Below are positions 9,217-58,929 of a stretch of DNA of 64,000 nucleotides, piece after piece. Source of the stretch: Dehalococcoidia bacterium. GTDB lineage: Bacteria > Chloroflexota > Dehalococcoidia > GIF9 > AB-539-J10. Position 1 is the first letter of the stretch; every line of letters starts with the position of its first letter. The DNA is taken from NCBI GenBank assembly GCA_003562475.1, contig PWUU01000035.1, positions 1 through 64,000 of the forward strand, given 5' to 3'. The notes beneath the pieces were generated by a model. It was not told the DNA's origin and searched no databases. It saw only the letters and a program-made list of their open reading frames with translations. A program made the translations under genes and the position numbers.

Positions 9217-9903
9217 CTAGTCCTCCTTCTGGCTGAGCTGTGACAGCGCGTGGCAGGCGGCGATCATCTCTGCTGCCTTACGATTGCGACCGGTACCGTG
9301 ACCGAGGACGCGATCATTGACTAGCACCTCAGCGGTAAACGATTTCTCGTGATCGGGACCTTCAGTGCGTACAATCCGGTAGTGTGGTAGAGGACAGTCC
9401 CTTGATTGCAAATACTCCTGCAACATTGCCTTATAGTTGGGTGTTGTACCATGCAATGTGACGGCCTGGATATGAGCGTGGAAGTGGCGAAGCACAAAGG
9501 ATTGAGCCGCATCATAACCTTGATCAAGGTATAGGGCACCCACGATTGCCTCAAGAGTATCAGCAAGGTTGCGGACTTTGTCCCGACCCCCACTCGCTGC
9601 CTCCCCCTTGCCAAGTCTCAAGAAGCTGCCCAACCCCAGACTTCGGGCGACTGTGGCCAGTGCCTCTCGTCGAACCAGTGCTGCACGCAATGCGGTGAGA
9701 GCGCCCTCGCCCGCCTCAGGCATTTGGCGGTACAGTGCCTCTGCGATTACTGCGCCAAGCACGGCGTCTCCAAGGAACTCGAGGCGCTCATTGCTGGCTG
9801 TCGTTGTGTTCTCCGATTCATGTACATGACTGCCATGTATTAGCGCGCGCTCAAGCAAAGCGCGATCACGAAATCGGACGCCCAGAATGTTCTCGATCTG
9901 CAT
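9217..9903 (-). CDS. rnc: Ribonuclease III
   Basis: 228 residues from the ATG at 9903; the frame is open further upstream, but family homology starts at MQIENILGVRF. The signature NERLEFLGDAVL carries the acidic metal ligands, a second acidic cluster is ADTLEAIVGALYLD, and a double-stranded-RNA-binding domain fills the last 70 residues (NYKAMLQEYLQ to AAEMIAACHAL). RNase III processes rRNA precursors and structured mRNAs. It lies about 43 nt downstream of the J-domain gene. Confidence 0.95.
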   Translation of the reverse strand: MQIENILGVRFRDRALLERALIHGSHVHESENTTTASNERLEFLGDAVLGAVIAEALYRQMPEAGEGALTALRAALVRREALATVARSLGLGSFLRLGKGEAASGGRDKVRNLADTLEAIVGALYLDQGYDAAQSFVLRHFHAHIQAVTLHGTTPNYKAMLQEYLQSRDCPLPHYRIVRTEGPDHEKSFTAEVLVNDRVLGHGTGRNRKAAEMIAACHALSQLSQKED

Positions 9904-9946: not shown

Positions 9947-10789
9947 TCATCGGTGAGGATTCTTTGCAACGTGCTGGAAGGCTGTGTCCAATAGCCGTTC
10001 TGCGGTTTTCGGCGGGACGCCATCACGAGTAAGCTCGTCGATAACAAGCTGCCTGGCGGTCATAAGCTTCTCACCGACCACGCGCACACCATTATCGAGC
10101 GATGCGCTGAGATCGACATGCTCAGGCGTGAGCCGAGTATCCGCCCGAGTGGACTTGCCCGTCTTTCGGCGTATGCGCTCGAAGGCCTGATCCGATATCT
10201 CCACAGCGACGCCGCGGTTGAGGCCGCTCTGGACCAGGTGTTCTGCTAATTGGTCGCGCAATACCTTCGCCTCCTGTGTCACTACGCGGAGTGCGTCATC
10301 ATAGGATGCTCCCTGATCTATGTGAAGGGTGGTCGGTCGAGCCTGATCACTTCGGCGTTCGCTTTCGCCTGTGCTCTGCGCCTTCAACGCGGTGTTAACG
10401 AGATTGGTGGCGAGATCACGGGCTAGCCCGTCGCGGGTGATTTCCCCGATCAGGTACTCGCGTGCAGCGGCGATCTTGCGTGTGACGATGGCGAGGATGT
10501 CCTCAAGCGATGAAGTGGGATCGATGCGCTCCCGGGGTAGAGCGACCGTGAAATCGTGGCTGGACTCGTGCAGACCGATGTCTGCTAGAGAGGTTCGTCC
10601 GATACGGGCTCGTAACGCATGGAATGCGACGTTGATTCGTGCCATCCGAGCCATGGCGTCAGGCGCTTCGGAGCGATCGGGATGGTATTTCTTGGCAAGC
10701 GCCCGATATGCGGCTACAACGACCTCCGGCTCAGCAGTTGGCGTCACCTGCAGTGTCTCGTAGTGATTCTCGTTCGTAGTTTGGGTCAA
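9947..10789 (-). CDS. J-domain protein with three internal repeats
   Basis: 280 residues. An N-terminal J domain (about 8-65) has YETLQVTP and the HPD triad at 36-38, which stimulates DnaK ATPase. The rest lacks the G/F region, zinc-finger domain and C-terminal substrate domains of true DnaJ. Instead, three copies of a roughly 48-residue unit are visible at about 90-137, 157-206 and 225-274. Each has a short D-x-x-[SA]-S-[LY]-[DE] lead, an amphipathic helix and an [IE]-x-[RQ]-[DS]-G-[LV] turn. Such a protein may direct DnaK to a specific partner; function unknown. rnc follows downstream. Confidence 0.75.
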   Translation of the reverse strand: MTQTTNENHYETLQVTPTAEPEVVVAAYRALAKKYHPDRSEAPDAMARMARINVAFHALRARIGRTSLADIGLHESSHDFTVALPRERIDPTSSLEDILAIVTRKIAAAREYLIGEITRDGLARDLATNLVNTALKAQSTGESERRSDQARPTTLHIDQGASYDDALRVVTQEAKVLRDQLAEHLVQSGLNRGVAVEISDQAFERIRRKTGKSTRADTRLTPEHVDLSASLDNGVRVVGEKLMTARQLVIDELTRDGVPPKTAERLLDTAFQHVAKNPHR

Positions 10790-10964: not shown

Positions 10965-11038
10965 TGGGGATTGGTCTAGCGGTAGGACGACTGACTCTGG
11001 ATCAGTTAGGCCTGGTTCGAATCCAGGATCCCCAGCCA
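10965..11038 (+). tRNA. tRNA-Gln(CTG)
   Basis: A 74-nt cloverleaf with encoded CCA. The acceptor stem pairs TGGGGAT with ATCCCCA, the D arm contains TAGCGGTAGGA, the anticodon stem ACTGA/TCAGT encloses loop CTCTGGA (anticodon CTG, codon CAG), and the T arm is CCTGG-TTCGAAT-CCAGG. The window also carries gatA, gatB, gatC and gltX but no glnS, so this tRNA may be charged by the indirect route (Glu-tRNA-Gln then amidation); that is inference. Confidence 0.95.
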
Positions 11039-12720: not shown

Positions 12721-13340
12721 TCAGGTGAGATCAGTTCCAGCAATCTTGACGTGGTGGACAGTACCTCTCGCGAGGGAGGCAACTATTCCGATGAGACATG
12801 CGAAAGTGCAGAGCAAGAAGGTTGTCTGCATGGCGTCGACGAACAGGTGAACGGGAGTCGTGTCAACATCCGCTGTCCCGACCCTTGAGGCGATGAAGAG
12901 TGTGGCTATCCCCATGCTGGTGACCATCCCAACCTGACGGATCGTCGTCAGGATCGCCGACGCGACTCGGTATCGTTGGGTGTTGACTCATGTCATGACA
13001 GCATTCGTACTTGGTGAAGAAGAGACGCCCCCTCCGAGACCGAGGAGCGCGAGAGCGGCCATTAGCGATCCAATCGTGTAGGTACTCACATCGAGCGTGC
13101 GGATCGCTTTCTTCCATGCGCGTCGGCAATCCCGTCAAATGGAATGAGGAGCAGTGAACTCACAAGCAGGAATGATGTGGCAACCCAGGGCAGTTCTAGT
13201 GCAGTCATTTGCAGAGCGACGCCGATGGACGGCAAAGCGACGTTTACAGAGGACCCCAAGAATGGGAAGAGAAAGGCGGCGGCGCAGGTGACCAGTAGTA
13301 CCGCCCGCCTGGTGCCATGAGAGGAGTCCGAATCAGTCAC
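12721..13340 (-). pseudogene. Decayed MFS drug-transporter gene (DHA2 type)
   Basis: The intact N-terminal part (GTG at 13340) encodes the first two or three membrane helices and GIADAHGRKR, the loop 2-3 motif of the major facilitator family, then meets a stop near 13086. In another frame, remnants of the C-terminal part follow: a GLGGGVSSSPSTNAV segment, an in-frame TGA, then ASAILTTIRQVGMVTSMG and a last helix ending at 12721. About 300 residues of the middle are missing. So there is a large internal deletion, a frame change and a nonsense codon. Confidence 0.8.
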
Positions 13341-55384: not shown

Positions 55385-57271
55385 TCATACCTCCCGGAAC
55401 TCGCCGTCTACGGTGCTGTCGTCGGTATCGCCGCCAAAGCCCTGAGACTGTTCGGCGCCGGGCTGGTCGGCCTGACCATATACGGCGGCTCCAGCCTTCT
55501 GGATGCTATCGGATAGGGCCTGCATTGCGCCCTTGATTGCAGAGATATCCTGTCCCTGAAGGGCACTTCGCAGCGCTGCGGTATGGCTTTCTATCTCCTG
55601 CTTGGCGTCGGCGGGCAGCTTATCACCATGGTCGCGCAGAGTCTTCTCAGCCGTATAGGCTAGGCTGTCCGCGGCGTTGCGTGTTTCGACCTCTTCTTTG
55701 CGCCGTTTGTCCTCGTCTGCGTGCTTCTCAGCCTCCTGGCGCATCTTCTCCACTTCTTCCTTGCTCAGTCCGCTTGAGGCCGTGATGGTGATCTTCTGTT
55801 CTTTGCCGGTGCCCTTGTCACGGGCGCTGACGTTCAGTATCCCGTTAGCATCGATCTCAAAGGTCACCTCTATCTGGGGGACGCCGCGAGGAGCCGGCAT
55901 GATTCCGTCAAGGATGAATCGCCCGAGTGTTCGGTTGTCAGCTGCCATAGGTCGCTCTCCCTTGATGACGTGGATTTCGACGCTGGGCTGGCTATCTGTC
56001 GCCGTGCTGAATATCTGGCTCTTCTCGGTGGGAATAGTCGTGTTCTTCGGGATGAGTGGTGTGGCGACGCCACCGAGAGTCTCGATGCCCAGTGTGAGCG
56101 GTGTCACATCGAGCAGCAACACTTCCCCGACTTCGCCTTTCAATACGCCTGCCTGGATGGCCGCGCCCAATCCGACGGCCTCATCCGGGTTGACTCCCTT
56201 GACCGGTTCTTTGCCGAAGAACTGGCGGATGGCCTCCTGCACCTTGGGCATTCGTGTCTGGCCGCCTACAAGCACTACGTTGTCAACCTGTGAAGCAGTG
56301 ATGCCTGCATCCTGAAGGGCCTGCTTGACTGGCTCAAGGGTCCTATCGATCAGGTCGGCTGACAGTTGCTCCAGCTTCGCTCGTGAGAGCGTCATGGTCA
56401 GGTGCTTGGGCCCGCTGGCGTCGGCCGTGATAAATGGCAAGTTCACCTCGGTCTGGGCCACGGTCGATAGTTCCTTCTTCGCTTTCTCTGCCGCGTCCTT
56501 AATCCTCTGCAGTGCCATGCGGTCCTGTTTCAGATCAATGCCCGATTCCTTGCGGAATTCGTCGCAAACCCAGTCCATGATTCGCTGGTCAATATCGTCT
56601 CCACCAAGATGGGTGTCTCCGTTGGTTGCCTTCACCTGGAAGGTGCCCTCGCCGATGTCAAGCAGCGAGATGTCAAAAGTGCCTCCTCCAAGGTCGTACA
56701 CCGCGATGGTCTGATCGCCTGTCTTGTCCATGCCGTAGGCCAGGGACGAAGCCGTCGGTTCATTGATGATGCGCAGCACGTTCAAGCCTGCAATGGCACC
56801 CGCATCCTTGGTTGCCTGGCGCTGGCTGTCGTTGAAGTAGGCGGGCACAGTAATGACGGCGTCGGTCACCTTCTCGCCAAGGTATGCCTCAGCGTCAGCC
56901 TTCAGTTTCTGAAGTATCATCGCCGAGATCTCCTGGGGGCTGTAGTCTTTGCCTCCCATGACGACCCTGCAGTCACCGTTGGGGGCCTCGACGAGCTTGT
57001 AGGGCAGGCGCTTGAGGTCGTACTGAACGGACGCGTCCTGAAATCTGCGCCCGATCAAGCGCTTGATGCTGAAAATCGTATTCTCAGGATTGACAATCGA
57101 CTGGCGTTTGGCGATCTCGCCGACAAGTCGTTCGCCATTCTTACTGATGGCAACGACTGATGGTACCAGATTACCACCCTCAGCACTTGGTATGATCTTG
57201 GGCTCACCGCCCTCCATCACGGCGACTACGCTGAGGGTTGTCCCCAGGTCAATACCGATTGCTTTCCCCAT
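55385..57271 (-). CDS. dnaK: Chaperone protein DnaK (Hsp70)
   Basis: 628 residues with a strong GGAGG site. [51 protein letters not shown] and [11 protein letters not shown]-type segments define the ATPase; the substrate domain and a Gln/Gly-rich tail ending GEFREV follow. It is third in hrcA-grpE-dnaK, 35 nt after grpE. Canonical dnaJ is not the next gene. Confidence 0.97.
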
Positions 57272-57306
57272 GCTATGGTCCTCCTTCCTCCTTTGTTGTT
57301 ACTCTC

Positions 57307-57873
57307 TCAGTTCTCGTCCGGTGCGTAGTCACTCGCTTCCTGTGAGCCGACTACGACCATGCTCGGGCGCAGCACGCGGTCATTCAGCATGTAGCCCTTC
57401 TGTGCTTCCTCAAGGACGATACCGTCGTCTCCCGGTCGTCTCATGATCGCCTCGTGGTATCGCGGATCGAATGGTTGTCCGACCGCTTCAATCTGTGTCA
57501 AACCCTCGCTCGCAAGGGTCGTCTTGAGTTTCTCATAGCTCATCTTGGCACCTTCAGCCCACGCAGCTTTTCGCCTTTCTGAGACTGGCCGTGAGAAAGC
57601 ACGGTCAAGGTCATCGAGCGCACTCATGAGTTTCGCAACCAGAACGCTGTTTGCGAGGTCCATGGCCTCCCGCCGCTCATGCTGTGCTCTCCTCTTGTAG
57701 TTCTCCAGATCGGCTTGTGTTCGCTGCCAGTTAGCCAGATAGGTGCGTGCTCGTTCCTCTGCAGCGTCGAGCTGCTCGGTTAATGCTGCAATCTGATCTG
57801 AGTTCTCAGTCCCTTCGGTCTCTGTACTGTTATTGTCAGCGTGTTGATCGTGCGGCTGTTGATACTGGTTCAC
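57307..57873 (-). CDS. grpE: Nucleotide exchange factor GrpE
   Basis: 188 residues from the GTG at 57873, which has AGGAG 6 nt upstream and lies 10 nt after the hrcA stop; the ATG at 57900 is an alternative. An acidic, Gln-rich N-terminus, a long helix (ALTEQLDAAEERARTYLANWQR), and the C-terminal beta domain (GQPFDPRYHEAIMR, GYMLNDRVLRPSMVVVG) are typical. It releases ADP from DnaK. Confidence 0.95.
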   Translation of the reverse strand: MNQYQQPHDQHADNNSTETEGTENSDQIAALTEQLDAAEERARTYLANWQRTQADLENYKRRAQHERREAMDLANSVLVAKLMSALDDLDRAFSRPVSERRKAAWAEGAKMSYEKLKTTLASEGLTQIEAVGQPFDPRYHEAIMRRPGDDGIVLEEAQKGYMLNDRVLRPSMVVVGSQEASDYAPDEN

Positions 57874-57883
57874 GGCAGACTCC

Positions 57884-58903
57884 TCATTGCGGTGTTGCAT
57901 CGCCCAATGACTCACTCAGTATGGCGGATAGGTAGTTCACCGACGAAATAGCCTTTGTATAGTCCATACGTTTCGGCCCGACAACGCCTATCACGCCCCG
58001 TGACCGTCCGGTGAAAGCATAGTTGCCGATCACCAGGCTTAGATCCTGCAGCGCTTCATCTCGGTTCTCCTGGCCAATAATGACACGGATACCCTCTTCG
58101 AGGATCTCAGGGCCAAGTGCCATCTCGAGCCAATCGTCTCGCTCCACAAGCCTGAGGAGGGTGAGAGTCCTCTGGCCCTTGGCGAACTCGGGTTGGCTTA
58201 GCACAAGGTGCAGACCCTCTAGATAGGCCCGGCCGAGTTCCGGGCGATCCTCAGCTCGCATCATCGCCGCGATCTGACGCAATATGTCACGATCCTCGCT
58301 GATGTGCTGTATCTCGGCGGTGATCTCTTGGTGTGCCATACCGGCCAGATGTGCTGTGAGACGATTGGAAAGCTCGGTCAACTCGTCCTGCGTGTGAGAG
58401 GTGGGCAACGAAATCGTACGCTGTCGAACAACGGCAGGTTCACAGAGAACGAGAATGAGAAGAGCCAGCGTGTCCTGCAGCGACACAATATGCAGGTGCC
58501 TCAGGGTGGCCTTCGTGGATTTTGGCTGTGTTACGAGCGCTGCATTGTGCACGAAATGCGCGAGCAGTGTGGCTATGAGCCGGAGCCGCTTGTCGAGCTC
58601 CTCTCCGGCATCGTGACATACTCCGGCGATCAGAAGCTGGTCCGCAAGCGGAAGCTGAACGTCGCGACCAATAGACTCTACGTAGAATCGGTACGCGCGG
58701 TCAGTGGGCACCGAGCCCGCCGATGTGTGTGGTCGCATAACATACCCTTCCTCTTCCAGCGCCGTCACTTCGTTTCTGATGGTTGCCGGACTCACGCGCA
58801 GGTCTGTAAGCGCGATCGTCTTTGAAGCCACCGGGGTGCCAGTCGCAACATAACCGGTGACAATGGCCCGTAGTATGGCTTCTTTTCTCGGTGTTAGTCC
58901 CAT
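57884..58903 (-). CDS. hrcA: Heat-inducible transcription repressor HrcA
   Basis: 339 residues from the ATG at 58903 (a GTG at 58909 is an alternative). The N-terminal winged helix has LTPRKEAILRAIVTGYVATGTPV and VSPATIRNEVTALEEEGYV; the GAF-like and C-terminal domains follow. HrcA binds CIRCE and represses hrcA-grpE-dnaK, with release on heat shock. A CIRCE-like site lies right at its own start. Confidence 0.96.
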   Translation of the reverse strand: MGLTPRKEAILRAIVTGYVATGTPVASKTIALTDLRVSPATIRNEVTALEEEGYVMRPHTSAGSVPTDRAYRFYVESIGRDVQLPLADQLLIAGVCHDAGEELDKRLRLIATLLAHFVHNAALVTQPKSTKATLRHLHIVSLQDTLALLILVLCEPAVVRQRTISLPTSHTQDELTELSNRLTAHLAGMAHQEITAEIQHISEDRDILRQIAAMMRAEDRPELGRAYLEGLHLVLSQPEFAKGQRTLTLLRLVERDDWLEMALGPEILEEGIRVIIGQENRDEALQDLSLVIGNYAFTGRSRGVIGVVGPKRMDYTKAISSVNYLSAILSESLGDATPQ

Positions 58904-58929
58904 TAGCACTCTGCCTCATCGGCTGCTAA
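58903..58929. promoter_or_regulatory. CIRCE operator
   Basis: TTAGCACTC, a 9-nt spacer and GGCTGCTAA: the left arm fits the consensus exactly and the right arm differs from GAGTGCTAA at two positions. It lies between the hrcA promoter and start codon, as expected for autoregulation by HrcA. Confidence 0.85.

Follow-up and report, generated by a model that had tools for sequence, protein, structure and literature searches.

The window, a stretch of 64,000 nucleotides of contig PWUU01000035.1 from a Dehalococcoidia bacterium, encodes on its minus strand a J-domain protein (JDP) in which an N-terminal J domain is followed by three related, evenly spaced units (Table 1). The first-pass annotation had placed a J-domain protein with a triplicated helical unit at this locus, and the open reading frame (ORF) was confirmed with the same boundaries and strand. 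The start codon is our choice; the same aligned position is TTG or ATG in all seven orthologues that hold their start, and the copies in genomes G002 and G016 end at contig ends and are incomplete. For the closest pair of orthologues (G005 and G006), whole-protein dN/dS is 0.22 at a dS of 0.24, all other whole-protein pairs being too saturated for a reliable estimate. The JDP is a real gene under purifying selection. A gene for tRNA-Gln (CTG) lies divergently upstream (10965-11038, plus strand). A promoter and terminator scan returned three promoter-like sites against 1.1 expected, a result that is not used here as evidence.

Table 1. The repeat-JDP gene, its parts, and the rnc and dnaK genes of the window
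Feature	Coordinates	Strand	Description	Basis
JDP gene	9947..10789	(-)	280 aa, TTG start	ORF; 8 orthologues aligned
J domain	10592..10771	(-)	residues 7-66, HPD at 36-38	Pfam DnaJ; PDB J domains of CbpA and DnaJ
Repeat 1, hairpin	10376..10534	(-)	model helices 95-119, 122-139	profile E 9.1e-24 (unit in profile)
Spacer 1-2	10319..10378	(-)	20 residues; free sequence, fixed length	
Repeat 2, hairpin	10166..10330	(-)	model helices 163-187, 192-211	profile E 1.1e-22 (unit in profile)
Spacer 2-3	10115..10174	(-)	20 residues; fixed length	
Repeat 3, hairpin	9965..10129	(-)	first row of the repeat model	profile E 1.9e-25 (unit in profile)
rnc (RNase III)	9217..9903	(-)	next downstream gene; start 43 nt after JDP stop codon	ORF, chosen start
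dnaK	55385..57271	(-)	sole full-length Hsp70 gene found in the genome	ORF; Pfam HSP70 E 7.7e-264

The proposal that three related units of about 48 residues follow the J domain is borne out by pairwise comparison. Raw local BLOSUM62 scores are 64 for units 1 and 2, 75 for units 2 and 3 and 89 for units 1 and 3, against a mean of about 22 (sd about 4.4) for shuffled units, and for each pair none of 5000 shuffles reached the real score. Profiles were also trained on a single repeat position of five proteins of the window's genus, with the window protein among the training rows at the trained position only. In five of six cases, such a profile gave the other positions of the window protein a higher score than any of 2000 shuffles; the exception was the repeat 3 profile, which scored repeat 2 at 8.5 bits when the best shuffle had 8.8. 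The proposed lead, D..(S/A)S(L/Y), recurs in the 18 aligned units of six proteins, with D in 15, S in 17 and L or Y in all 18, and the proposed turn has its G in every one. Amphipathicity did not discriminate, as only one of the six helices lay clearly above its shuffles.

With a core of 48 residues and a spacer of 20, the period is 68 residues, and the turn glycines are exactly this far apart in 14/14 intervals of seven proteins (six of the genus and that of G016). The distance between HPD and the first turn varies among these seven proteins, with values of 83, 84, 85 and 89. Mean identity of spacer 1-2 is 13% over ten pairs within the genus and 9% to G016, that of spacer 2-3 is 43% and 20%, respectively, and that of the 48-residue cores is 53-61% within the genus, all means being taken without G006, a near twin of G005. 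Length is held while sequence drifts, which suggests a constrained geometry. Fixed spacing is only suggestive because our own arithmetic, which places three or more changes of length all in a single linker out of three similar ones, gives about 0.04, and because the seven proteins are related.

The units are helical in AlphaFold2 models, as the word helical in the first description had anticipated. A single-sequence model of the whole protein contains three helix pairs at low confidence (pLDDT 51.7). Repeat 3, for which repeats 1 and 2 served as the alignment (three rows in all), was modelled as an alpha-hairpin at pLDDT 88.4, with helices at positions 7-35 (29 residues) and 40-54 (15 residues). 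Foldseek, run with this repeat model against PDB and BFVD, returned nothing that reached an E of 0.001.

None of the usual DnaJ domains could be recognized, in agreement with the first-pass annotation: the zinc finger, the G/F region and the C-terminal DnaJ domain were all without a match, and Pfam matched nothing in the window protein beyond the J domain. Neither Pfam nor NCBIfam has a model that reaches its cut-off on the tail of the repeat-JDPs, PHROGs matches to the window protein are confined to the J domain, and PADLOC gave no match for the repeat-JDP. The description of the repeat as undescribed thus stands for these four collections. Sequence searches of PDB gave matches that, for the window protein, begin within the J domain and, for the repeat profile, had a best E of 0.22. 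Two families came closest. The Bdr family (NF040499, cut-off 40 bits) scored 13.3 to 32.0 bits on 7/7 tails, where 20-26 residues of the repeat core resemble only half the profile of the Bdr N-terminal region, and a search of 61 genomes, among them that of the window, found nothing that matched the model. The P5CR dimerisation domain (PF14748, P5CR_dimer) gave weak matches in three of eight members, the best at 20.2 bits with a cut-off of 25; like the repeat, it has a helix, a turn with G and a second helix, with weak similarity in sequence and fold, but the repeat-JDP is without the reductase domain. We read both matches as local resemblance through a shared helix-G-helix core rather than as family membership. 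Other candidates were rejected on score, namely Pfam and NCBIfam matches such as Spore_II_R and FtsX in G016, all below cut-offs, and an aldehyde dehydrogenase model with up to 20.5 bits on L004 and L005 (cut-off 403).

In a review (PMC8215388), class A JDPs are defined by a G/F region, beta-sandwich client domains and a zinc finger, and class C JDPs by having only the J domain in common with DnaJ; the same text treats it as established that JDPs use their additional domains to direct Hsp70 to particular clients or locations. Class B JDPs have a G/F region and beta-sandwich domains without the zinc finger. With no Pfam match beyond the J domain, the window protein falls outside class A and also, its tail being helical in the models, outside class B. 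What it has in common with DnaJ is limited to the J domain, which is how class C is delimited in the review (PMC8215388). A curved DNA-binding protein model matches as far as residue 82, and the HscB model TIGR00714 reaches 21 bits (cut-off 46.75) over the J part only. The class C proteins HscB and DjlA likewise combine a J domain with a specific module, but their models match only the J part, the module of the repeat-JDP being its own triple hairpin array. A short JDP from another Chloroflexi record (L031) shares 54% identity with the query segment over its J domain, in a 157-residue ORF that is without the repeat and has a different C-terminal part. The best reading is that the window protein is a class C JDP whose triple hairpin module is undescribed and confined to its lineage. 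No such JDP was found in the literature searched, which does not show that none exists. A survey of prokaryotic JDP domains, Barriot et al. 2020, is cited by the review and may list this architecture.

Searches for the repeat in other proteins recovered it, by profile, in eight of 84 genomes of the order: all seven of the window's genus and one of two of a second genus, g11. The g11 genome without a match is listed as 67% complete, so that absence there says little. The window's own genome has good matches to the repeat profile only in the three units of the window protein. The profile matched the own genome and two others in a sample of 400 genomes of the phylum, and four genomes of the genus and four others in a sample of 393 of the class; the order, phylum and class sets overlap. 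The additional matches are weak (E 4.6e-4 to 0.007) and look unrelated by reading, comprising a 241-aa ORF with a hydrophobic stretch, AIR-synthase-like and PIN-like proteins and two probable wrong-frame ORFs. Viral contigs gave 52 pattern matches, none of them a relative, and plasmid and phage records gave none. Among the 80 contig loci kept, the matches listed end by query residue 124, and nearly all cover the J domain only; four J proteins from this contig search (L031, L032, L033 and L066) were read, and none has the repeat. The two best J-domain matches of this search carry the labels Chloroflexi and Anaerolineales. Among the genomes searched, the repeat is restricted to two genera. The contig of G016 could be misbinned; it represents a separate lineage in any case, because its protein is only 37% identical to that of the window.

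In a tree of 18 units, the repeats of the genus group by position, with support of 100/99 for repeat 1, 100/99 for repeat 2 and 97/96 for repeat 3. The triplication therefore predates the genus. Within it the three copies have stayed distinct, which is what one would expect of units that make separate contacts. The units of G016 do not group by position and lie near each other with weaker support (82-85); they are 68-80% identical to one another, with dN/dS of 0.11-0.21 between them, and so were homogenised or amplified apart.

The J domain itself is readily recognized, with Pfam DnaJ covering residues 8-60 of the window protein (E 9.5e-12) and matching all eight orthologues, above the cut-off in the seven with listed scores. 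The HPD motif is kept in 8/8. For docking on DnaK, the DnaJ of E. coli uses R22, K26, R27, K48 and K51 (PMC8215388). Of these five positions, K26 is the only one that is positive in all eight orthologues (R or K); those of R22, R27, K48 and K51 hold A or V, A, A and N, respectively. Six other aligned J domains of the same genome keep three or four of the five, and five of these six have the helix IV motif that the repeat-JDP lacks. With four of five docking charges replaced in every orthologue, action through DnaK may be weak or absent. By reading, the J domain of L031 has a similar pattern at the docking positions, so that the docking-poor J domain may be an inherited subtype rather than a product of decay.

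The DnaK of this genome is the likely partner of this J domain. Within 55385-58909 (minus strand), the ORFs before dnaK resemble grpE and hrcA by reading, an arrangement usual for a heat-shock cluster. A further HSP70 match, short and N-terminal-like (L185, G000:C71:4705-4986), spans profile positions 2-86 only, in a 159-aa ORF; the gene is perhaps truncated where its contig ends, or it may encode a divergent Hsp70-like protein. In two more JDPs of this genome (L180, G000:C57:4120, and L181, G000:C27:6368), the J domain is followed by zinc-ribbon-like pairs of cysteines, and the C-terminal end is hydrophobic.

The reading that we prefer, in which we place about as much belief as doubt, is that of a class C co-chaperone whose tail array binds a partner or client and brings DnaK there. 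The N-terminal J domain would stimulate the DnaK of the genome through its HPD motif, and the three tandem alpha-hairpins, with their fixed 68-residue period, would together offer one partner or client a multivalent binding surface and so bring DnaK to it. Most of the positive charge is gone from the docking face of the J domain, so that recruitment of DnaK is probably weak and would depend on the high local concentration provided by the bound tail. The repeat-JDP is probably a lineage-specific adaptor. A narrower version, to which we assign a rather low probability, is that of a scaffold calibrated by its spacing, in which three distinct hairpins of a new repeat domain, at their invariant 68-residue period, would bind successive subunits or segments of a periodic partner and the attenuated J domain would deliver DnaK only once they are engaged.

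About as probable as that version is the alternative that the hairpins mainly self-associate, giving a JDP dimer or larger assembly with avidity for DnaK and aggregates and with no specific client. Class A and B JDPs have a C-terminal dimerisation domain that gives avidity of this kind. When the repeat model is compared with PDB, the top rows are helices through which P5CR dimerises (VIA Z 5.6, 53 residues at an rmsd of 3.0), with rows for the EF-Ts dimerisation domain and IHF at lower VIA Z, and the P5CR_dimer family touches some of the members at the level of sequence as described above. However, the Foldseek E for the P5CR rows is 2.2, which is not significant, and their Z lies in a range typical of hairpins; helical hairpins give such values by their common arrangement. 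Self-association would also need less than the position-specific conservation seen in the three copies.

Less probable still is a J domain that has ceased to act with Hsp70, in a protein that would be a scaffold or holdase and in which this domain is a relic or binds something else. The loss of docking charges in all orthologues, compared with their retention in the six other JDPs of the genome, and the missing helix IV motif would both fit such a relic. Against it stand the invariant HPD and the slower change of the J domain than of the tail in G005 and G006 (dN 0.020 versus 0.064), as does the resemblance to L031, under which the pattern could simply be inherited.

The gene directly downstream, which we take to be rnc from recognition of its sequence, begins about 43-49 nt after the JDP stop codon in six genomes of the genus, by reading. 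The JDP gene lies directly upstream of rnc on 6/6 genus contigs that hold both, the seventh contig ending inside the JDP gene, and the two are likely cotranscribed in the genus. Homologues of rnc occur in 46 of 52 genomes of the family; among the 30 matches fetched from those 46 genomes, a J domain is present at six loci, all of the genus, and at none of the 24 others. The whole JDP-rnc neighbourhood is syntenic within the genus, which makes the adjacency weak and non-independent evidence that the two genes work together. The G016 copies of JDP and rnc are on different contigs, and a 1398-aa ORF near the JDP of that genome (L142, 1663-5856, plus strand) resembles a bacterial alpha-2-macroglobulin. 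Elsewhere in the window, an 84-aa ORF (13086-13340, minus strand) aligns with the start of transporter-like ORFs of 469-477 aa in congeners, so that no more than a remnant of this gene seems to be left in the window. A role for the JDP in serving RNase III or RNA processing, by which cotranscription with rnc across the short gap would reflect delivery of DnaK to RNase III or to ribosome assembly sites, is the least probable of the readings, given the general synteny of the region in the genus, the separate contigs of G016 and the lack of a nearby J domain at the other rnc loci of the family.

The sites at which Hsp70 acts are set by JDPs, and modules that target it in a new way reveal new places of action. 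In our preferred reading, as an adaptor that brings DnaK to a partner, the repeat-JDP would add to these modules a helical repeat that is not listed in the family collections searched, with unusually fixed spacing, on a J domain poor in docking charges and in uncultured bacteria. It also raises a testable question, namely, whether avidity mediated by the tail may act in place of electrostatic docking of the J domain on DnaK.
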